DNA from: Aliiroseovarius sediminilitoris
GTDB taxonomy: Bacteria > Pseudomonadota > Alphaproteobacteria > Rhodobacterales > Rhodobacteraceae
Reading direction: 5' to 3'
Length of the DNA stretch: 64,000 nt
Assembly: GCF_900109955.1 (NCBI RefSeq)
Contig: NZ_FOJB01000001.1
Location: forward strand, 2,976,001-3,040,000
Shown here: piece after piece, positions 28,897 through 52,935 of the stretch
How positions within the stretch are numbered: position 1 is the first letter of the stretch
How the letters are laid out: every line of letters begins with the position of its first letter
The notes under the pieces: generated by a model
What the model was told of the DNA's origin: nothing
Seen by the model: only the letters and a program-made list of their open reading frames with translations
Database searches by the model: none
Program-made: the position numbers and the translations under genes

Positions 28897-29652
28897 ATGA
28901 ATGACACAGATATGACATACCATCCCTACGCGATTCTGGGCGAGGATCGACCCTCGCGCTGGTTGGTCACTTGCGACCATGCCGCCAATACTGTGCCGCC
29001 TTGCGTCGGCTCGGGCGATCTGGGTGTTGCGGCCGAAGACATGGCCCGCCACATCGCTTACGATGTCGGTGCCGCAGGCGTCACACGCCACCTGTCCGAG
29101 CTTCTGGACGCCCCCGCCATCCTGTCAAATTTTTCGCGCCTGGTGATTGACCCCAACCGGGGCGAGGACGATCCGACGCTGGTGATGAAGCTCTATGACG
29201 GCACCATCATTCCCGCCAACCGCCACGTTGACCGCGAAGAACGTGACCGCAGGTTGAACGCATTTCACCGCCCCTATCATCGGGCCATCGCGCGGCTTGC
29301 CGCACGGCAGAGTAACTCCGTGATCCTCGCCATGCATTCCTATACCCCACAGCTGAAGGGGCGCGAGAAACGTCCGTGGCATATCGCCATCCTTCATGAT
29401 CGCGACAGCCGTCTGGCCAGCCCCTTGATTGCGCGGCTCAGGGAAGAACCCGACCTCTGCGTGGGTGAGAACGAACCCTATGGCGGGCATCTGGACGGTG
29501 ATAGCATCGACCGCCACGCGGTTCTGACCGGGCGGGTCAATGTGTTGATCGAAATCCGAAACGACCTGATCGAAACCGAGGACCAGCAGCGCTGTTGGGC
29601 AGAACGTCTGGCCCCGATCCTGACCGAGACACTGGCAAAGACCGGTCTTTGA
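28897..29652 (+). CDS. N-formylglutamate amidohydrolase family protein
   Basis: The 251-residue protein has the HutG-type hydrolase signature LVTCDHAANTVPP near residue 24, a conserved NFSRLVIDPNRG segment and AMHSYTP near 145, all expected of the metal-dependent N-formylglutamate amidohydrolase family. Classic members cleave N-formyl-L-glutamate in histidine breakdown, but no hut genes are nearby, so the substrate is open. A second, divergent member is at 44630. The gene appears monocistronic, diverging from pyk. Confidence 0.87.
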   Translation: MNDTDMTYHPYAILGEDRPSRWLVTCDHAANTVPPCVGSGDLGVAAEDMARHIAYDVGAAGVTRHLSELLDAPAILSNFSRLVIDPNRGEDDPTLVMKLYDGTIIPANRHVDREERDRRLNAFHRPYHRAIARLAARQSNSVILAMHSYTPQLKGREKRPWHIAILHDRDSRLASPLIARLREEPDLCVGENEPYGGHLDGDSIDRHAVLTGRVNVLIEIRNDLIETEDQQRCWAERLAPILTETLAKTGL

Positions 29653-43651: not shown

Positions 43652-44512
43652 TCAGTTGCTGCGAAATATTCGCGATTCACCTATCATGTCTTCCAAGGCC
43701 GCGATGCGGTCGGTGCTGTCGCTGCGGCTTTGGATTTCTGCCACCAGCGCTTCAATCAGAAAGTTGATGGCAAGGGTCGAATCCCAGCTTGACGGCACTT
43801 CGACCATGCTGCGGAAACAGAAGGTCGCGTAACGTTCAATAGGCGACCCCCATTGGTCGGTGAAAAGCACGATGTTTGCACCATGATCAACCACCAGCTT
43901 GGCCAGACGCTCCAGTTCCTTTTCATACCGTCGGATGTCGAACACGATGAGCGTCGAATTCTCGTCCATGTCCAACAGCGATTGCGGCCAGACACTGGGC
44001 GAGAAATCCAGCTGCGTCACGCCCGGGCGAATGATTTGAAGATGGTTGAAAAAGTAATGAGCATTGGACCGGGTGATCCGGCCACCGAGCAGATACAGAC
44101 GTCGGTTCAGGTCCGACAAAAGCGCCGCAGCCTTGTCGAATTCGTCCAGATCCAGCCGTTCCAGACTGCGGTTGATATTGCGCGACACCGCTTCGGCAAA
44201 ACGACTGATGATATGATCCTTGCCTGCCGACAACTCAGCCGTTTCCAGCTTCGCCAATGGTTCTTTCATTTGGGCGGCGATCTCTTCGCGGATGGCGTCT
44301 TGCAGGTCCGGGAAGCCCTGATAGCCCAGTTTGCGGGCCAGCCGGATAATCGTCGGGGTTGAGACCTCGGCGCTTTCGGCCAGCTTGGTAATGGACTGCA
44401 AACCCGCAACCAGAGAATCGTCAAGAAGCGTGGCGGTCAGCCGCCGCTCAGCCGCCGTCAGTTCATCCTGCTTCTCGCGGATCTGGTCTTTGACGAGAGG
44501 CTTCTTTCCCAT
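43652..44512 (-). CDS. MurR/RpiR family transcriptional regulator
   Basis: The 286-residue protein has an RpiR helix-turn-helix (about 1-80, with ITKLAESAEVSTPTIIRLARKLGYQGFPDL) and a SIS sugar-isomerase-like effector domain (about 125-255, containing YLLGGRITRSNAHYF and TLIVFDIRRYEKE). It diverges from the N-formylglutamate-amidohydrolase-like gene and TRAP operon across a 117-base spacer holding two matching TGTA-N8-TACA boxes. I infer that it controls that operon, probably as a repressor relieved by a pathway intermediate. Confidence 0.9.
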   Translation of the reverse strand: MGKKPLVKDQIREKQDELTAAERRLTATLLDDSLVAGLQSITKLAESAEVSTPTIIRLARKLGYQGFPDLQDAIREEIAAQMKEPLAKLETAELSAGKDHIISRFAEAVSRNINRSLERLDLDEFDKAAALLSDLNRRLYLLGGRITRSNAHYFFNHLQIIRPGVTQLDFSPSVWPQSLLDMDENSTLIVFDIRRYEKELERLAKLVVDHGANIVLFTDQWGSPIERYATFCFRSMVEVPSSWDSTLAINFLIEALVAEIQSRSDSTDRIAALEDMIGESRIFRSN

Positions 44513-44568: not shown

Positions 44569-44598
44569 TTGACACAAGCAGACTCGTTGTAGTGATAA
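44569..44598 (+). promoter_or_regulatory. Candidate promoter of the amidohydrolase-TRAP operon
   Basis: TTGACA (44569-44574) is followed after 18 bases by TGATAA (44593-44598), 31 bases before the ATG at 44630. The -10 region is inside operator 2, so a bound regulator would block RNA polymerase. Confidence 0.5.
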
Positions 44599-44603
44599 TT
44601 ACA
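44588..44603. promoter_or_regulatory. Candidate RpiR operator 2, overlapping the -10 box
   Basis: TGTAGTGATAATTACA repeats the TGTA-N8-TACA pattern of operator 1. Centre-to-centre distance is 44 bases, about four helical turns, which would put both dimers on one face of the DNA. Confidence 0.5.
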
Positions 44604-44629: not shown

Positions 44630-45406
44630 ATGCTCAGGACAGCTTGGCCAGCGGCTGCGCTGATCGGTTCGACAGGGCTGGCACCCATAGTGCTGGTCTG
44701 CGAGCACGCATCCCGATTCATCCCACCAGAACTTGACGCGCTTGGACTGTCTGAAGATGCGCAAGGCTCACACGTGGCGTGGGATATCGGCGCTTTGGAT
44801 GTCGCCAAGTGTCTGAGCACCGGGCTTGATGCCCCCCTTGTCGTGGGTGAGATCTCTCGGTTGGTTTACGACTGCAACCGACCCCTGGAAGCCCCAGATT
44901 GCACCCCGTCCCGCAGCGAGGTATTCGACATTCCCGGCAATGTTGACCTGAACGATATTGACAAACAGTCTCGTTTCGACACGGTCCATGCGCCATTTCA
45001 CGCGACGGTAGATTACGCGATTGATAGACAGATTGCGCGCGTGGACGCGCCGGTGCTGTTGGTGACGGTGCACAGTTTTACACCCGTTTTTCACGGTCAG
45101 CGCCGGACGCTGGACATCGGATACCTGCACGACAACAACAGCAGAGCCGCCACGATGGCCGTCAACATCGAACGCGACCGGGGCACATACCGCGCGGCAA
45201 TCAACGAACCCTATGCCGCCCGTGACGGCGTGACTTACACACTGGCCAAGCACGGCGAGGCGCGTGGGCTGGACAATGTCATGATCGAAATTCGCAACGA
45301 CCTGATCGACACGCCCGCAACCGCCGAGGCGATGGCCGATCATCTCGTCACCACTCTGTCGCAAGTCGCTGCGCACATCTCCACACCGGAAACCGTCAAA
45401 ACATGA
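44630..45406 (+). CDS. N-formylglutamate amidohydrolase-like hydrolase, first gene of a catabolic operon
   Basis: The 258-residue protein has IVLVCEHASRFIPPELD near residue 23 (the HutG-type opening), ISRLVYDCNRP near 80 and VTVHSFTPVFHG near 144, so it belongs to the N-formylglutamate amidohydrolase family but differs clearly from the member at 28897. The family hydrolyses an amide on glutamate. In this operon it precedes a TRAP transporter, a glutamine-synthetase-like ligase and two dehydrogenases, so I suggest it could release glutamate from a gamma-glutamyl product. The stop overlaps the next gene (ATGA). Confidence 0.87.
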   Translation: MLRTAWPAAALIGSTGLAPIVLVCEHASRFIPPELDALGLSEDAQGSHVAWDIGALDVAKCLSTGLDAPLVVGEISRLVYDCNRPLEAPDCTPSRSEVFDIPGNVDLNDIDKQSRFDTVHAPFHATVDYAIDRQIARVDAPVLLVTVHSFTPVFHGQRRTLDIGYLHDNNSRAATMAVNIERDRGTYRAAINEPYAARDGVTYTLAKHGEARGLDNVMIEIRNDLIDTPATAEAMADHLVTTLSQVAAHISTPETVKT

Positions 45407-45921
45407 TAGCGCTTCGCAAATTCATCAGCATCGTTGACAAGATCAACTATCGCATCGGACGAGTGACCATGTATGGCATCTTCGTCATGATGGCGATCCT
45501 GTTGTGGTCGTCGATCTCGAAAACCTTCTTCAACCCGTCGCTCTGGACGTTGGAAATGGCGCAGTTCGCGATGGTCGCCTATTACATTCTGGGTGGCCCA
45601 TACTCGATCCAGATGGGGTCGAACGTGCGGATGGACCTTCTGTATGGCGGGTGGAGCACACGTCGCAAGGCCGCCATCGATACGATCACCGTCCTGTTCC
45701 TGATCTTTTATCTGGGGGTGCTCTTGTGGGGCGGTATCGACAGCACGCTTTATTCGTTCAAATACGGTGGCGAGCGCAGCCCGACAGCATGGCGCCCCTA
45801 TCTATGGCCGATCAAAGTGATCATGTGCACCGGTATCGCGCTGATGTTGCTACAGGCCCTTTCCGAACTGTTCAAAGACATTCTGCGCCTGCGCGGCGAG
45901 GAGATCGACAATGTCGTATGA
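45403..45921 (+). CDS. TRAP transporter small permease subunit
   Basis: The 172-residue DctQ-type protein has four membrane helices, with the usual conserved region VAYYILGGPYSIQMGSNVRMD near residue 56 between helices 2 and 3. It pairs with the large permease to form the sodium- or proton-coupled part of the importer. It overlaps the preceding gene by 4 bases and the following by 11 bases, so the three are translated together. Confidence 0.93.
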   Translation: MIALRKFISIVDKINYRIGRVTMYGIFVMMAILLWSSISKTFFNPSLWTLEMAQFAMVAYYILGGPYSIQMGSNVRMDLLYGGWSTRRKAAIDTITVLFLIFYLGVLLWGGIDSTLYSFKYGGERSPTAWRPYLWPIKVIMCTGIALMLLQALSELFKDILRLRGEEIDNVV

Positions 45922-47236
45922 GTTGATTGCGATCTTCATGTTCGCAACCATGATGGCGATGCTGTTGACCGGACAGCGCGTGTTCGGCGCCATCGGTTTC
46001 GTGGCGGTGATTGCAGCATTGGTGCTTTGGGGCGACCGGGGTGGTTACGACCTTGCCTTTTCCTCGGCTATGAAGCTGATGAAATGGTATCCGCTTCTGA
46101 CCCTGCCGATGTTCATTTTCATGGGCTACGTGCTGTCGGAATCCAAGATCGCGGATGATCTCTACAAGATGTTTCACGTCTGGATGGGTGGGCTTAAAGG
46201 TGGGCTGGCCATCGGCACGATTGGTCTGATGGTCCTGATTTCAGCCATGAACGGGTTGAGTGTTGCGGGCATGGCCATCGGGGCGACGATTGCGCTGCCG
46301 GAACTGCTGAAACGGAACTATGACAAGAAAATGGTGACGGGCGTCATTCAGGCCGGATCGTCCTTGGGCATCCTCGTCCCCCCGTCGGTGGTGCTGGTCC
46401 TCTATGCGATGATTGCGCGACAACCTGTCGGACAGTTGTGGCTTGCAGGTGTATTGCCCGGTCTGATGATGGCCGCGATGTTCATCATCTATATCGCCGT
46501 GCGCTGCCACCTGAACCCCGAGTTGGGCCCTGCCCTTACAGAAGAGGAACGCGACATCCCCATGTCCGAAAAGCTGGCGCTTCTGCGCGCGGGGATGCTA
46601 CCCTTGGTGATCTTTGCTGCGATGATGGTGCCCTTCGTCAACGGCTGGACATCGCTGGTTGAAAGCTCGGCCATTGGCGCCCTGACCGCATTTCTTGCGG
46701 CGGTCCTGAAAGGGCGCATGACCAAGGAAGTGTTCGAGACATCCGTTCGTATGACCCTTGGCATCAGTTGCATGTTCATGTGGATTATTCTTGCCGCTCT
46801 TGCCTTTGGCGCCGTGTTCGATGGGTTGGGTGCCGTGAAGGCGATTGAAACGCTGTTCACGGAACGTCTGGGGCTGAATCCATGGGTCATTCTGATCCTG
46901 ATGCAGCTTAGCTTCATCCTGATGGGAACATTTCTGGATGACACGGCGATGCTGGTGATCGTCGCGCCCCTTTATGTGCCGCTGGTTTCGGCGCTTGGTT
47001 TCGATCTGATCTGGTATGGTGTGCTTTATACAATCACGACTCAGATTGCATATATGACGCCGCCTTTTGGCTATAACTTGTTTTTGATGCGCGCGATGGC
47101 CCCCCCGGAAATCACATTGCGCGACATTTACGGTTCGATCCTGCCATTCGTGTTGGTGATGGTGCTGGCCCTTACACTGGTCATCCTGTTCCCGGAAATC
47201 GCGCTGTGGCTGCCGGGGTGGGTGTACGGAAACTAG
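45911..47236 (+). CDS. TRAP transporter large permease subunit
   Basis: The 441-residue DctM-type protein has about 12 helices and the family motifs LPMFIFMGYVLSES, NGLSVAGMAIGATIALPELL, VIQAGSSLGILVPPSVVLVL near residue 150 and FLDDTAMLVIVAPLYVPL near 340. It carries the solute across the inner membrane, driven by an ion gradient. It overlaps the small-permease gene by 11 bases and is followed after 53 bases by the binding-protein gene. Confidence 0.94.
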   Translation: MSYELIAIFMFATMMAMLLTGQRVFGAIGFVAVIAALVLWGDRGGYDLAFSSAMKLMKWYPLLTLPMFIFMGYVLSESKIADDLYKMFHVWMGGLKGGLAIGTIGLMVLISAMNGLSVAGMAIGATIALPELLKRNYDKKMVTGVIQAGSSLGILVPPSVVLVLYAMIARQPVGQLWLAGVLPGLMMAAMFIIYIAVRCHLNPELGPALTEEERDIPMSEKLALLRAGMLPLVIFAAMMVPFVNGWTSLVESSAIGALTAFLAAVLKGRMTKEVFETSVRMTLGISCMFMWIILAALAFGAVFDGLGAVKAIETLFTERLGLNPWVILILMQLSFILMGTFLDDTAMLVIVAPLYVPLVSALGFDLIWYGVLYTITTQIAYMTPPFGYNLFLMRAMAPPEITLRDIYGSILPFVLVMVLALTLVILFPEIALWLPGWVYGN

Positions 47237-47289
47237 ACGAAAGAGCCTGACAGAACAGGCCGTAACTTTTGCAACAAGGAGAAAGACAA

Positions 47290-48324
47290 ATGACAACTAG
47301 ACGTAAGTTTATCGCCGGTGCCGGTGTGGGCGCCTTGGCCGCACCGCTTGCAACGCCTGTTCTTGCGCAATCCACCATCACATGGCGGATGCAAACCTAT
47401 GCCGGCCCCGCGCTGGCGGAACACGTTGTCAAACCGGCCATCGACATGTTCAACCAGATCGCCGGTGATCGGATGCAGATCGAGCTGTTCTTTGCGGATC
47501 AGCTTGTGCCGACTGGCGAGCTGTTCCAGGCCATGCAGCGCGGCACGATCGACGCGGTGCAGTCGGATGACGATTCAATGGCTTCACCGACCGAAGTGAC
47601 CGTGTTTGGCGGATATTTCCCGTTTGCGTCCCGCTATTCGCTGGATGTGCCGGTTCTGTTCAACCAATACGGACTGAACGAAATCTGGGACGAGGAATAT
47701 TCCAAAGTCGGTGTGAAACATATCAGCGCAGGCGCGTGGGATCCGTGCCATTTTGCCACCAAGGATCCAATCAATTCGCTTGAAGATCTGAAGGGCAAAC
47801 GGATCTTCACCTTCCCGACCGCTGGTCGGTTCCTGACGCAGTTCGGGGTCGTTCCCGTCACGCTGCCGTGGGAAGATATCGAGGTCGCGGTCCAGACCGG
47901 TGAACTGGACGGTATCGCATGGTCCGGCATCACCGAGGACTACACCGTCGGCTGGGCCGATGTGACCAACTATTTCCTGACCAACAACATCTCGGGCGCA
48001 TGGGCCGGGTCGTTCTTCGCCAATATGGACCGTTGGAACGAACTGCCGGACGATCTGAAAACACTGTTCCGGGTTTGCTGTGATCAATCGCACTATTATC
48101 GTCAGTGGTGGTATTGGGGCGGCGAGGCCAGCCTGCGGGTAAATGGCCCCAAGATGGAACTGACAACCATCCCGGATGCCGAATGGGCGCAGGTCGAAGA
48201 AGCCGCCGTGAAGTTCTGGGACGAAATCGCCGCGGAAAGCGAAACCAAAGCGAAGGTCGTGGACATCATCAAGACCTATAACGCAACGATGCAGAAGGCT
48301 GGACGTCCGTATCGCTACGGATAA
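47290..48324 (+). CDS. TRAP transporter substrate-binding protein (DctP type), Tat-like signal
   Basis: The start at 47290 follows AAGGAGAAAG. The 344-residue precursor begins MTTRRKFIAGAGVGALAAPL, a twin-arginine-like signal with cleavage after VLAQ. The mature protein has the DctP fold, including the ligand-arginine region NSLEDLKGKRIFTFPTAGRF near 155 and a W-rich C-terminal lobe (YYRQWWYWGGEAS). In TRAP systems this residue pattern recognises a carboxylate, although some members bind other solutes. A stable hairpin follows the gene before the ligase. Confidence 0.92.
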   Translation: MTTRRKFIAGAGVGALAAPLATPVLAQSTITWRMQTYAGPALAEHVVKPAIDMFNQIAGDRMQIELFFADQLVPTGELFQAMQRGTIDAVQSDDDSMASPTEVTVFGGYFPFASRYSLDVPVLFNQYGLNEIWDEEYSKVGVKHISAGAWDPCHFATKDPINSLEDLKGKRIFTFPTAGRFLTQFGVVPVTLPWEDIEVAVQTGELDGIAWSGITEDYTVGWADVTNYFLTNNISGAWAGSFFANMDRWNELPDDLKTLFRVCCDQSHYYRQWWYWGGEASLRVNGPKMELTTIPDAEWAQVEEAAVKFWDEIAAESETKAKVVDIIKTYNATMQKAGRPYRYG

Positions 48325-48343
48325 GCATTGCATCACGCATATT

Positions 48344-48365
48344 GCCGGGCGGTCCGCCGCCCGGC
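48344..48365 (+). terminator. Stable hairpin between the TRAP binding-protein gene and the ligase gene
   Basis: GCCGGGCGG and CCGCCCGGC form a perfect 9-bp stem closed by a TCCG tetraloop. No T-run follows. Hairpins like this after binding-protein genes are known to protect the upstream message and give more of the periplasmic protein, so I read it as an RNA stabiliser or partial terminator. Confidence 0.5.
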
Positions 48366-48389
48366 ACACTTTCAAAAGGTTTTCACAAA

Positions 48390-49751
48390 ATGTCACCCAC
48401 ACTTTCGTTTGATGATCTGAAGTCTCATGTCGCTGCTGGCGATGTTGACACGGTTCTGGTTTGTTTTGTCGATATGCAGGGCCGTTTGATGGGCAAGCGG
48501 TTTCATGCGGGTCACTTTGTTGCGGGGGCCTGGGAGGAAACCCATTGCTGCAATTATCTTCTGGCGACGGATCTGGAGATGGGGACGCCTGATGGCTATG
48601 TTTCGACCGGTTGGGCGCGTGGGTATGGCGATTATGTGATGAAGCCTGATCTGGACACGCTGCGCCCGGTGCCCTGGCTGGACGGGACGGTGCTGGTGCT
48701 GTGCGATGTGCTGGATCACCACACGCATGAAGACGTGCCCCATTCGCCGCGCGCCATCCTGAAGCGTCAGGTGGCGCGTCTGGCCGAGATGGGCTTTGAT
48801 GCGATGTGCGCGACCGAGCTGGAGTTTTTCCTGTTCGAGAAGAGCTTTGACGAGATTCGCAAAGCGGGTTTTCGCGACCTCGCCCCGATCTCGGGCTACA
48901 ACGAAGATTACCACATCCTGCAAACGACGAAGGAAGAACACGTGATGCGGCCGATCCGCAATCACCTGTGGAATGCCGGGCTGCCGATCGAGAACTCGAA
49001 AGGCGAGGCGGAGTGCGGGCAGGAAGAGTTGAACATCAAATACGCGCCCGCACTTGAGACCGCAGCCTATCACTCCATCGCCAAGCACGCGGTGAAGGAA
49101 ATCGCATGGCAGCAGGGACATGCCGCAAGTTTCCTGCCGAAATGGCACCATGACAGGGTCGGTTCGTCCAGCCATGTGCACCAGTCGCTGTGGAAAGACG
49201 GCAACCCCGCCTTTGCCGATGCCGATGACAAGCTGGGCATGTCGGCGCTGATGAAGAACTACATGGCGGGGCTTTTGAAATATGCGCCGGATTACACCTA
49301 TTTCATGGCGCCCTATATCAACAGCTACAAGCGGTTCATGAAGGGCACGTTTGCGCCGACGCGGATCATCTGGTCGGTGGACAACCGCACGGCGGGGTTC
49401 CGGCTGTGCGGCGAAGGCACCAAGGCAATACGCGTGGAATGCCGCATTCCGGGGTCCGACATGAACCCCTATCTGGCCATTGCCGGGATGCTGGCGGCCG
49501 GGATTGCAGGGATTGAGGAAGGGTTGGAGCTTCAGCCCCCGACCGTGGGCGATGTCTATCAAGGTGATACCGGCATGATCCCGGGCAACCTGCACACCGC
49601 CCGCGATGCGCTGTATGGGTCCACCATGTTGCGCGCCGCGATGGGGGATGAGGTCGTGGATCACTATTCCCGCGCGGCGGAGGTCGAGATCGAAGAGTTT
49701 GAGCGTGTTGTCACCGATTGGGAGATTGCGCGTGGGTTTGAGAGGGCATAG
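48390..49751 (+). CDS. Glutamine synthetase family ligase (gamma-glutamyl-amine ligase-like)
   Basis: The 453-residue protein has the type I glutamine synthetase fold: a beta-grasp N-terminal domain (DTVLVCFVDMQGRLMGKR), ATELEFFLF near residue 142, GEAECGQEELNIKYA near 211, SSSHVHQSLW near 265 and the arginine-bearing FRLCGEGTKAIRVECRIPG near 345. It is close to the PuuA/GlnA4/IpuC branch, which ligates glutamate to amines (putrescine, ethanolamine, isopropylamine) and not to ammonia. Its operon, with two dehydrogenases downstream and a hydrolase upstream, supports that. The amine is unknown. Confidence 0.88.
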   Translation: MSPTLSFDDLKSHVAAGDVDTVLVCFVDMQGRLMGKRFHAGHFVAGAWEETHCCNYLLATDLEMGTPDGYVSTGWARGYGDYVMKPDLDTLRPVPWLDGTVLVLCDVLDHHTHEDVPHSPRAILKRQVARLAEMGFDAMCATELEFFLFEKSFDEIRKAGFRDLAPISGYNEDYHILQTTKEEHVMRPIRNHLWNAGLPIENSKGEAECGQEELNIKYAPALETAAYHSIAKHAVKEIAWQQGHAASFLPKWHHDRVGSSSHVHQSLWKDGNPAFADADDKLGMSALMKNYMAGLLKYAPDYTYFMAPYINSYKRFMKGTFAPTRIIWSVDNRTAGFRLCGEGTKAIRVECRIPGSDMNPYLAIAGMLAAGIAGIEEGLELQPPTVGDVYQGDTGMIPGNLHTARDALYGSTMLRAAMGDEVVDHYSRAAEVEIEEFERVVTDWEIARGFERA

Positions 49752-49833
49752 GGGGCGCTGCCCCCCCGCCTTCGGCGTCCCCCGGGATATTTTCAACAAG
49801 AAAATGCGGGGGTGTTTCAGAAATGAGGACAGA

Positions 49834-51216
49834 ATGAAGCAGATATTGGAATGTATCTCTCCGATTGATGGATCGGTCTTTGTGACGCGCGAGACGCTGT
49901 CGCGGGACGATGCGGTTGCGGCGGTCGGGCGCGCGCGCGATGCGCAAGCTGCATGGGCGGCACGTCCGCTTCAGGAGCGGATTGATTTGGTGATGGCGGG
50001 GGTTGCCGCCGTGGGTGCGATGAATGACGAGATCGTGCCGGAGCTGGCCCATATGATGGGGCGCCCCGTGCGCTATGGCGGCGAATTTGGCGGGTTCAAT
50101 GAACGTGCGTCTCATATGGCCAGCATCGCGGCCGAGGCGCTGGCCGATATCGAGGTTGGCGAGGACGAGACATTCAAGCGCTATATCAAGCGGCTGCCGC
50201 ATGGGGTCGTGTTCGTGGTCGCGCCCTGGAACTATCCTTACATGACGGCGATCAACACGGTGGCACCTGCGCTGATTGCGGGCAATACGGTCATGCTGAA
50301 ACACGCCACCCAGACGCTTCTGGTAGGCGAACGGATGGCGGCGGCCTTCCATGCGGCAGGCATTCCCGAGCAGGTGTTCCAGAACGTGTTCCTGTCGCAT
50401 GACGTGACCAATGATCTGATCGCGGGCAATGCGTTCGATTTTGTGAACTTCACCGGCTCGGTCGGTGGTGGACAGGCGATGGAGCGCGCGGCGGCTGGCA
50501 CCTTTACCGGCGTGGGCACGGAGCTCGGCGGTAAAGACCCCGGCTATGTGATGGAGGATGCCGATCTGGATGCGGCGGTCGAGACGCTGATCGACGGGGC
50601 GATGTTCAACGCAGGCCAGTGCTGCTGCGGGATCGAGCGGATCTATGTGCATGAAAGCCTGTTTGACGCGTTTGTCGCCAAGGCGGTCGAGATCGTGAAA
50701 GGCTACAAGCTGGGCAACCCGCTGGACCCGGAGACCACGCTTGGCCCGATGGCGCATGTGCGGTTCGCCGCCGAAGTGCGCGCCCAGATTGACGAGGCGC
50801 TGGCGGATGGCGCGACAGCGCATATCGACACCTTCCCGGAAGATGATGGCGGGACTTATCTGACGCCGCAGATCCTGACCAATGTCACCCATGACATGCG
50901 GGTGATGCGGGATGAGAGTTTTGGGCCGGTTGTCGGGATCATGGCCGTCAAGGACGATGCCGAGGCGATCCGCCTGATGAATGACAGCGAGTTTGGTCTG
51001 ACAGCTTCGCTTTGGACGCGCAACCTGGAGCGTGCGCAAGCCGTGGGCGATCAGGTCGAGACCGGCACGGTCTTCATGAACCGGGCCGATTATCTTGATC
51101 CCGGACTGTGCTGGACCGGCTGCAAGAACACCGGGCGTGGAGGCGGGTTGTCGGTGATCGGCTTCCACAACCTGACCCGTCCGAAATCCTATCATCTGAA
51201 AAAGGTAACACCATGA
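49834..51216 (+). CDS. Aldehyde dehydrogenase
   Basis: From the ATG behind GAGGAC, the 460-residue NAD(P)-dependent enzyme shows FVVAPWNYP near residue 130, FVNFTGSVGGGQAM near 204, the glutamate in ELGGKDPGYV near 232 and the catalytic cysteine in FNAGQCCCGIERIYV near 266 (three cysteines in a row). It would oxidise an aldehyde intermediate to the acid. It follows the ligase gene by 82 bases and its stop overlaps the Fe-ADH start in ATGA. Confidence 0.93.
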   Translation: MKQILECISPIDGSVFVTRETLSRDDAVAAVGRARDAQAAWAARPLQERIDLVMAGVAAVGAMNDEIVPELAHMMGRPVRYGGEFGGFNERASHMASIAAEALADIEVGEDETFKRYIKRLPHGVVFVVAPWNYPYMTAINTVAPALIAGNTVMLKHATQTLLVGERMAAAFHAAGIPEQVFQNVFLSHDVTNDLIAGNAFDFVNFTGSVGGGQAMERAAAGTFTGVGTELGGKDPGYVMEDADLDAAVETLIDGAMFNAGQCCCGIERIYVHESLFDAFVAKAVEIVKGYKLGNPLDPETTLGPMAHVRFAAEVRAQIDEALADGATAHIDTFPEDDGGTYLTPQILTNVTHDMRVMRDESFGPVVGIMAVKDDAEAIRLMNDSEFGLTASLWTRNLERAQAVGDQVETGTVFMNRADYLDPGLCWTGCKNTGRGGGLSVIGFHNLTRPKSYHLKKVTP

Positions 51217-52358
51217 GCCTTCAAGGAAACTGGTCCTATCCGACCGCGATCAAGTTTGGTGCAGGCCGCATCAAGGAACTGCCCGAGGCCTGCGCGCAGG
51301 CGGGGATAAAGCGCCCCCTTCTGGTGACGGACAAGGGTCTGGCCGACCTGCCGATCACCAAGAACACGCTGGACATCATGGACGCCGCCGGGCTGGGCAG
51401 CGGTCTGTTCTCTGAGGTTGATCCCAACCCGAACGAGGCGAACTTGGTGGCGGGCGTCGAAGCCTTCAAGGCGGGCGCCCATGACGGGGTGATCGCCTTT
51501 GGCGGCGGCTCGGGGCTGGATCTGGGCAAGATGGTGGCCTTCATGGCCGGTCAGACCCGACCGATCTGGGATTTTGAGGATATCGGCGATTGGTGGACCC
51601 GCGCCGACGCGGGGGCCATCGCGCCCATCGTTGCCGTGCCGACCACGGCCGGCACCGGGTCCGAAGTGGGGCGCGCCAGCGTCATCACCAATGCGGACAC
51701 GCATGAGAAGAAGATCATCTTCCACCCGAAGGTGCTGCCCAGTGTGGTGATCTGCGACCCGGAACTGACCGTCGGGATGCCGAAATTCATCACCGCTGGC
51801 ACCGGGCTGGATGCCTTCGCCCATTGCGTCGAGGCCTATTCAAGCCCGCATTATCACCCGATGAGCCAGGGCATCGCACTTGAAGGGATGAAGCTGGTGA
51901 TCGACAACCTGCCCCGCGCCTATGCGGACGGCACTGACATCGAAGCGCGGAGCCATATGATGAGCGCGGCGGCCATGGGCGCGACGGCCTTCCAGAAAGG
52001 GCTGGGTGCGATCCATGCGCTGAGCCACCCGATCGGCGCGATGTATCACACCCATCATGGCACAACCAACGCGATCTGCATGCCCGCGGTGTTGCGCTTC
52101 AACGCACCCGCGATCAAGGACCGCTTCGACCTGGCCGCCGGATACCTGGGCATCAAGGGCGGCTTTGACGGCTTCCAGTCCTTCGTGCAGGACTTCAACG
52201 ACAGCATGACGATCCCCAAGCGGATCAGCGAGCTTGGCGTCAGCAACCCCGATATCGACACGCTGGTAAAAGGTGCCTTGATCGACCCCTCATGTGGCGG
52301 CAACCCGATCGAACTGACCAAAGAAAACATCACACAGCTCTTCAACGACGTAATCTGA
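51213..52358 (+). CDS. Iron-containing alcohol dehydrogenase
   Basis: The 381-residue group III alcohol dehydrogenase has the dinucleotide-binding GGGSGLDLGKMVAFM near residue 96, TTAGTGSEVGRASVIT near 145, and the metal-site histidines in HALSHPIGAMYHTHHGTTNA near 270. It probably oxidises the alcohol group of the transported compound to the aldehyde handled by the preceding enzyme. The start is set at 51213 by the 4-base overlap, as the longer frame reads antisense into the aldehyde dehydrogenase gene. A strong terminator follows. Confidence 0.93.
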   Translation: MSLQGNWSYPTAIKFGAGRIKELPEACAQAGIKRPLLVTDKGLADLPITKNTLDIMDAAGLGSGLFSEVDPNPNEANLVAGVEAFKAGAHDGVIAFGGGSGLDLGKMVAFMAGQTRPIWDFEDIGDWWTRADAGAIAPIVAVPTTAGTGSEVGRASVITNADTHEKKIIFHPKVLPSVVICDPELTVGMPKFITAGTGLDAFAHCVEAYSSPHYHPMSQGIALEGMKLVIDNLPRAYADGTDIEARSHMMSAAAMGATAFQKGLGAIHALSHPIGAMYHTHHGTTNAICMPAVLRFNAPAIKDRFDLAAGYLGIKGGFDGFQSFVQDFNDSMTIPKRISELGVSNPDIDTLVKGALIDPSCGGNPIELTKENITQLFNDVI

Positions 52359-52367
52359 CGAACCCCC

Positions 52368-52406
52368 CTGAACTGCCCGGGACCCCCACCGGGCAGTTCA
52401 GTTTGT
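52368..52406. terminator. Bidirectional terminator between Fe-ADH and universal stress gene
   Basis: CTGAACTGCCCGG and CCGGGCAGTTCAG form a perfect 13-bp stem with an 8-base loop, followed by TTTGT. It lies 9 bases after the operon's last stop and abuts the stop of the convergent universal stress gene. Confidence 0.85.
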
Positions 52407-52819
52407 CAGTCTCGCGTTCGTTGAACATGCACGGCACACCGACAATGCCGAACCACCCGCGCTGCGGTCGATCCCAGGAAAAAGTCGCTCAGTCCCGGCT
52501 TGTGCGACCCAATCACGACGCAATCAAAGTCGTGCTCATGCGCATAGTCGATGATTGTACGTGCCGTGTGTCCAGTCAGCAGAACGGGCGTGACCCCTTC
52601 CAAACCTTCAGTTTTTTTCATCAACATGCTGTGGGCGTGGTCGCGCCCAGCCTTTACGATATCGTCGTTCAGATAGGCGCTGACCGACGCTTGCGGGGCT
52701 TCATGGACGTGTAATGCGGTAATGTCGCCACCTTCTGCCAGAAGGTTTCTGGCGATCTCCAGTGTCTCGGGTGAGATGCCGTGGTCCAGCGCCATCGGGA
52801 CAAGAATTTTCTTATACAT
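52406..52819 (-). CDS. Universal stress protein UspA family
   Basis: The 137-residue protein begins MYKKILVPMALDHGIS behind AGAGGATC. It has the Rossmann-like USP fold with the ATP-binding C-terminal motif IGSHKPGLSDFFLGSTAARVVRHC (G-2x-G-9x-G-S/T pattern, the glycine positions partly conserved). USPs are induced by starvation, low oxygen and other stress in the cytosol. It is convergent with the iron alcohol dehydrogenase gene and shares a terminator with it. Confidence 0.9.
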   Translation of the reverse strand: MYKKILVPMALDHGISPETLEIARNLLAEGGDITALHVHEAPQASVSAYLNDDIVKAGRDHAHSMLMKKTEGLEGVTPVLLTGHTARTIIDYAHEHDFDCVVIGSHKPGLSDFFLGSTAARVVRHCRCAVHVQRTRD

Positions 52820-52935
52820 TTGATCCTCTTTCAGACGTGTCGGGCCGATCAGTAACTGCCCGGTCAGACCGATCCATTGCACTGATTTGAAGAAGTCACA
52901 CAATGACACACATCATATTGCGCGCATTTCTCCGC

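Follow-up and report, generated by a model that had tools for sequence, protein, structure and literature searches.

An Eto-type operon in Aliiroseovarius sediminilitoris predicted to use ethanolamine by gamma-glutamylation

The 64,000-nucleotide stretch of the Aliiroseovarius sediminilitoris genome analysed here (the window; contig NZ_FOJB01000001.1, positions 2,976,001 to 3,040,000) carries a block of seven plus-strand genes at window positions 44630-52358, which we read, with a probability of about 0.92, as an Eto operon for the use of ethanolamine by gamma-glutamylation. The periplasmic binding protein EtoX would bind ethanolamine, the permease EtoVW would carry it into the cell, and a glutamine-synthetase-like ligase would join it, with ATP, to the gamma-carboxyl group of glutamate. 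An iron-containing alcohol dehydrogenase would oxidise the gamma-glutamylated product to an aldehyde, an aldehyde dehydrogenase would convert this to gamma-glutamylglycine, and an enzyme of family PF05013 would release glycine and glutamate. From the present analysis, this reading draws on gene content, gene order, the kinship of EtoX to an ethanolamine-bound protein, and residue changes in key proteins; ethanolamine binding and induction, both published for homologues, point the same way by analogy. Each enzyme step, and the regulation, is predicted for this organism. The genome joins those of bacteria in which the Eto route can be expected to draw on the ethanolamine of phospholipid headgroups.

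Gene content and kinship to published operons

The seven genes were recovered by open reading frame (ORF) calling in the window, and families were assigned with Pfam profiles, with scores above the curated cut-offs. A HutG-like amidohydrolase opens the block (44630-45406; FGase, PF05013, 133.1 bits against a cut-off of 28.9) and corresponds by position to GGAH, gamma-glutamylglycine amidohydrolase. The three parts of a TRAP transporter follow: the small permease DctQ (45403-45921; PF04290, 73.2 bits; EtoV by position), the large permease DctM (45911-47236; PF06808, 220.1 bits; EtoW by position), and the binding protein DctP (47290-48324; 74.3 bits), named EtoX here for its identity to PDB entry 4UAB and its residue Phe173. 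Last come the glutamine-synthetase-like ligase (48390-49751; Gln-synt_C, PF00120, 316.9 bits; by position ETAGA, ethanolamine gamma-glutamylase), the aldehyde dehydrogenase (49834-51216; Aldedh, PF00171, 381 bits; GAADDH by position), and the iron-containing alcohol dehydrogenase (51213-52358; Fe-ADH, PF00465, 161.1 bits, and ADH_Fe_C, PF25137, 154.1 bits; GETADH by position). Gene starts were read from the sequence, and the final stop ends at 52358. The ligase query began at 48387 in the Pfam, NCBIfam and 5dm3 comparisons and in the contig scan, and the alcohol dehydrogenase query at 51210 in the Pfam and NCBIfam searches, in both cases one codon ahead of the gene start. Overlaps occur at three gene junctions (45403-45406, 45911-45921 and 51213-51216), and the gaps at the other three measure 53, 65 and 82 bases. 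An earlier note, made from the sequence alone, had described seven co-directional genes of these families, several of them overlapping, and this description is borne out; its inventory omitted a divergent minus-strand gene for an RpiR-type regulator (43652-44512; HTH_6, 61.0 bits; SIS, 60.7 bits). The note had also proposed import, glutamylation, two oxidations and hydrolysis, with ethanolamine ending as glycine, a scheme that is the same as one already published and with which our sequence tests agree.

These eight genes also make up, in unchanged order and with the same predicted roles, the eto operon of another organism, Phaeobacter sp. MED193 (RpiR-GGAH-EtoV-EtoW-EtoX-ETAGA-GAADDH-GETADH, MED193_10021 to MED193_10056; PMC10132767), where MED193_10021 matches the position of the window RpiR gene. 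The correspondence is by name and position, and the likening of MED193_10026 (GGAH) to the window amidohydrolase is likewise not by sequence. In Phaeobacter sp. CECT 5382 (L117) the layout is as in the window; a PF05013-type match occupies the GGAH position, and the ligase identity is 84%. Five MED193 proteins, namely GGAH, EtoX, ETAGA, GAADDH and GETADH, are reported to increase on phosphoethanolamine, and purified MED193 EtoX to bind ethanolamine with a dissociation constant of 7.9 µM, leaving phosphoethanolamine, phosphocholine and two glycerol phosphates unbound (PMC10132767). The same paper traces the ethanolamine pathway back to Vetting et al. 2015.

A comparable set of enzymes is described for the GlnA4 pathway of Streptomyces coelicolor (SCO1611-SCO1615; PMC6529630), which includes a gamma-glutamylethanolamide synthetase, two dehydrogenases and a hydrolase of the formylglutamate amidohydrolase family proposed to act on gamma-glutamylglycine. 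It differs from the window operon in that the passages describing it mention no TRAP transporter and give its regulator as EpuRI, which they do not name as RpiR-type. The proposal of such a hydrolase dates from 2019 (PMC6529630), so the use of a HutG-family enzyme for the last step, which the earlier note had believed new, was already in print. In Chromohalobacter salexigens, the system that includes the binding protein Csal_0678 shares PF00120, PF00465, PF00171 and PF05013 with the window, according to a table in a 2022 review. Since operons that import ethanolamine, glutamylate it, oxidise the product and release glycine have been published, the window operon is real and coherent but of an already described kind. 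With the novelty corrected, what remains of interest is narrow, namely the enzymology of the PF05013 hydrolase and the enzyme that takes its place in clusters without it.

To survey co-occurrence, we scanned contigs for the ligase, which gave at least 588 relatives, and mapped the eight window proteins onto the loci of the best 80 (76-94% identity). The RpiR gene and all seven operon genes occur in order in 56 of these 80 nearest ligase loci; given this count, the arrangement is not a product of chance. Ligase, aldehyde dehydrogenase and alcohol dehydrogenase stand together in 71 of the 80; a separation of the dehydrogenases from the ligase in related genomes, which the earlier note had named as refuting its scheme, is thus mostly not observed. 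The 80 loci are rich in Ruegeria and other Rhodobacteraceae, and these synteny counts therefore lean towards one clade.

Ligand and substrate

EtoX gives an indication of the ligand. Over 318 aligned residues, 265 are identical (83%) to the PDB chain 4uab (639.6 bits), and the next PDB sequence scores 60 bits. The structure is that of Csal_0678 with ethanolamine, in which Glu220 holds the ligand and aromatic side chains surround it (PMC12410723). Ethanolamine has been called a surprising TRAP ligand because it is positively charged (PMC5812351). A carboxylate-binding arginine is found in 5943 of 6142 DctP-type binding proteins, and Csal_0678 is without it (PMC4646407). At this position the window EtoX has Phe173, whereas arginine is kept in all seven further DctP proteins identified in the genome (eight matches in total). 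Both traits of the Eto kind, close kinship to Csal_0678 and loss of the arginine, are thus found in the window protein. Of 107 EtoX matches in the fetched loci, 96 carry Phe at this position and 11 carry Tyr; the window's own copy is excluded from this set, and at least two genomes are counted twice (G024 as L140 and L165, and G125 as L146 and L166). Glu216, in the binding region, is Glu in all 107 matches and in none of the seven paralogues, and all four acidic residues at positions 205-235 of the 4UAB chain are kept in the window EtoX. Glu216 is likely the counterpart of Glu220 of Csal_0678, with the numbering offset between the paper and the chain unsettled.

The best NCBIfam matches of the two dehydrogenases are to 4-hydroxybutyrate dehydrogenase (359.6 bits) and succinic semialdehyde dehydrogenase (295.4 bits), below the respective cut-offs of 500 and 521, and searches of PDB returned broad families only for both. 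Because these best matches, although below cut-off, are enzymes of longer-chain substrates, the same operon logic might serve mainly a different small amino alcohol (alaninol or 3-aminopropanol, for instance), ethanolamine being a side substrate. We consider this very unlikely in view of the 83% identity of EtoX to the ethanolamine-bound chain and the 7.9 µM affinity for ethanolamine of its MED193 counterpart. As to the cobalamin-dependent EutBC route for ethanolamine, a search with EutB alone gave no match in the genome, and the Escherichia coli control was positive.

The ligase matches PDB entry 5dm3 with 797.3 bits, and it falls below the GlnA cut-off (TIGR00653; 241.1 against 429.15 bits), which a separate GlnA of the same genome passes (L004; 644.1 bits). 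The glutamate in the GFEAP motif of that GlnA, corresponding to Glu327 of GlnA, which we take to help bind ammonia, aligns with Phe321 in a GTFAP motif of the window ligase. Of 111 matched stretches in the fetched loci (the window copy included), 108 have phenylalanine here; two of the others are uninformative at the position, and one distant paralogue has Ala. In the PuuA route for putrescine, glutamate is also attached first, by a glutamine-synthetase-like ligase, but the window ligase scores 186.6 bits against a cut-off of 650 for gamma-glutamylputrescine synthetase (NF045547).

Similar scores separate the amidohydrolase from HutG. It reaches 25.2 bits against a cut-off of 278.75 for the HutG equivalog (TIGR02017) and aligns with PDB entry 2odf (Atu2144) at 206 bits. 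Four PF05013 matches were found in the genome, one of which (L037) passes the HutG cut-off with 376.4 bits and another of which (L036) falls below it with 121.5 bits. As the window copy fails the cut-off that L037 passes, it is unlikely that the window gene encodes the HutG of this genome's histidine pathway. These results bear on a rival notion, in which the neighbourhood does not form one pathway: the ligase would be a glutamine synthetase that uses ammonia, and the amidohydrolase would be the HutG of the histidine pathway. What the window proteins have in common with such enzymes is Pfam family membership only. Both fail equivalog cut-offs that other genes of the genome pass, the ligase has Phe in place of the GFEAP glutamate, and the synteny across ligase loci argues for a joint function, all of which makes this notion extremely improbable. 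We therefore rejected the two assignments, the cut-offs being failed and better candidates lying elsewhere in the genome. A second PF05013 paralogue lies in the window itself, outside the Eto context (28897-29652, plus strand); it is 34% identical to the operon copy and has no NCBIfam match at 1e-10, and many genomes of the family have matches about as similar as this one.

The last step

Of the 80 loci mapped around the nearest ligases, 71 hold the amidohydrolase gene. Of the nine loci without it, four are short upstream (L047, L059, L089 and L101) and five are not (L043, L071, L096, L108 and L109). Across 149 genomes of the family, our own included, 133 have an amidohydrolase match at 1e-20, with close and distant copies counted together, and 87 have EtoX at 1e-100. 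For linkage, all 87 EtoX matches were compared with the first 76 amidohydrolase matches, weaker copies falling outside. EtoX and the amidohydrolase lie on the same strand and contig within 6 kb in at least 60 of the 87 genomes, at gaps of 1887-2503 bases.

Several observations weigh against our reading, or at least against a fixed place in it for the PF05013 enzyme. In 27 of the 87 genomes no amidohydrolase stands beside EtoX, among the matches listed. We fetched 15 of these 27 unlinked stretches, comprising 11 from the 13 genomes with EtoX at 74% identity or above, 4 from the 12 in which EtoX is 60-66% identical, and none from the two that have fragments; L168 breaks off directly upstream of DctQ, and in L177 and L178 less than 2 kb of sequence follows EtoX. 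None of the 15 has an amidohydrolase match at 1e-6, yet a ligase 58-64% identical to that of the window is still present in eight (L166-L170, L175, L176 and L179); the other seven have no ligase match. The hydrolase gene is therefore not always coupled to the others and is not indispensable at the locus. Where the gene is present, its product is mostly only 41-51% identical to the window amidohydrolase in loci whose ligase is 76-89% identical, a divergence that would allow its specificity to differ. The genome also encodes, elsewhere, a PF07722 hydrolase (G000:C1:2071540-2072199; 203.1 bits) that could act on gamma-glutamyl amides. Furthermore, the firmness of the C. salexigens pathway varies between accounts: it is 'demonstrated' in PMC10132767, 'predicted in an in silico approach' in another paper, and 'proposed' in the 2022 review.

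The unlinked stretches do not contradict the published scheme; in genomes without a linked PF05013 gene, glycine would have to be released by another enzyme, or an unlinked one, for the pathway to run. No replacement hydrolase stood out when the ORF lists of five fetched loci were inspected by eye, lists that give the longest ORF per place, often in the wrong frame, and to which no domain search was applied. The known pathway might operate in the window organism too with its last step catalysed by a different enzyme, for example the PF07722 hydrolase, and with the PF05013 enzyme clearing a side product. The presence of that hydrolase in the genome is compatible with this arrangement, as are the eight EtoX-ligase clusters among the 15 fetched stretches (the truncated L168 being one of them) and a literature on the PF05013 enzyme that, in the sources consulted, consists of expression data and predictions and holds no assay. 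We nevertheless regard it as unlikely, as the PF05013 gene accompanies the ligase in most of the nearest loci and the GGAH protein of MED193 increases on phosphoethanolamine (PMC10132767). A bolder extension of the Eto reading, put forward tentatively and with more doubt than conviction, is that the PF05013 enzyme differs from HutG in being a genuine hydrolase of gamma-glutamyl amides, and that lineages with EtoX and the ligase but without this gene recruited another hydrolase to carry out its step.

Upstream region and variant loci

The divergent RpiR protein is likely the regulator of the operon. Upstream of the first gene, a candidate promoter and operator (44569-44603, no strand assigned) consists of TTGACA at 44569-44574 followed by TGTAGTGATAATTACA at 44588-44603. 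The two elements are largely kept upstream of the operon in L040 and L041, and by eye a similar form occurs in L063 and L078. From the letters alone, they may represent a promoter with an RpiR operator; a promoter consensus scan detected no promoter-like site at 44569-44603, and its total of one hit was below the mean of 3.2 for shuffled sequences. Like the amidohydrolase, RpiR has a low identity (38-45%) in many of the loci with a well-conserved ligase.

Some ligase loci depart from the layout of the window. In L054, L071, L106 and L109 the ligase has an alcohol dehydrogenase nearby, and no aldehyde dehydrogenase match was found beside them. Ten of the 80 loci (L042:4842-20373, L043, L049, L054, L062, L067, L076, L079, L098 and L108) carry a gene of the inositol monophosphatase family upstream of the ligase and on its strand. 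It is joined by a Na+/Pi-cotransporter gene in L042, L043, L049 and L098, and L042 and L054 add a DeoR regulator downstream, along with a family-5 ABC transporter. This composition suggests that a phosphoethanolamine compound is dephosphorylated inside the cell and then enters the same glutamylation enzymes. Among the papers listed by literature searches, none showed a description of ligase loci of this inositol-monophosphatase type. In five others of the 80 (L048, L056, L061, L064 and L068), a Na+/Pi-cotransporter 54-55% identical to that of L042 is encoded between EtoX and the ligase, and L128 has a Na+/Pi-cotransporter gene after EtoX.

At the downstream end of the window operon, a universal stress protein gene on the minus strand (52406-52909; PF00582, 85.8 bits) converges on the alcohol dehydrogenase gene.

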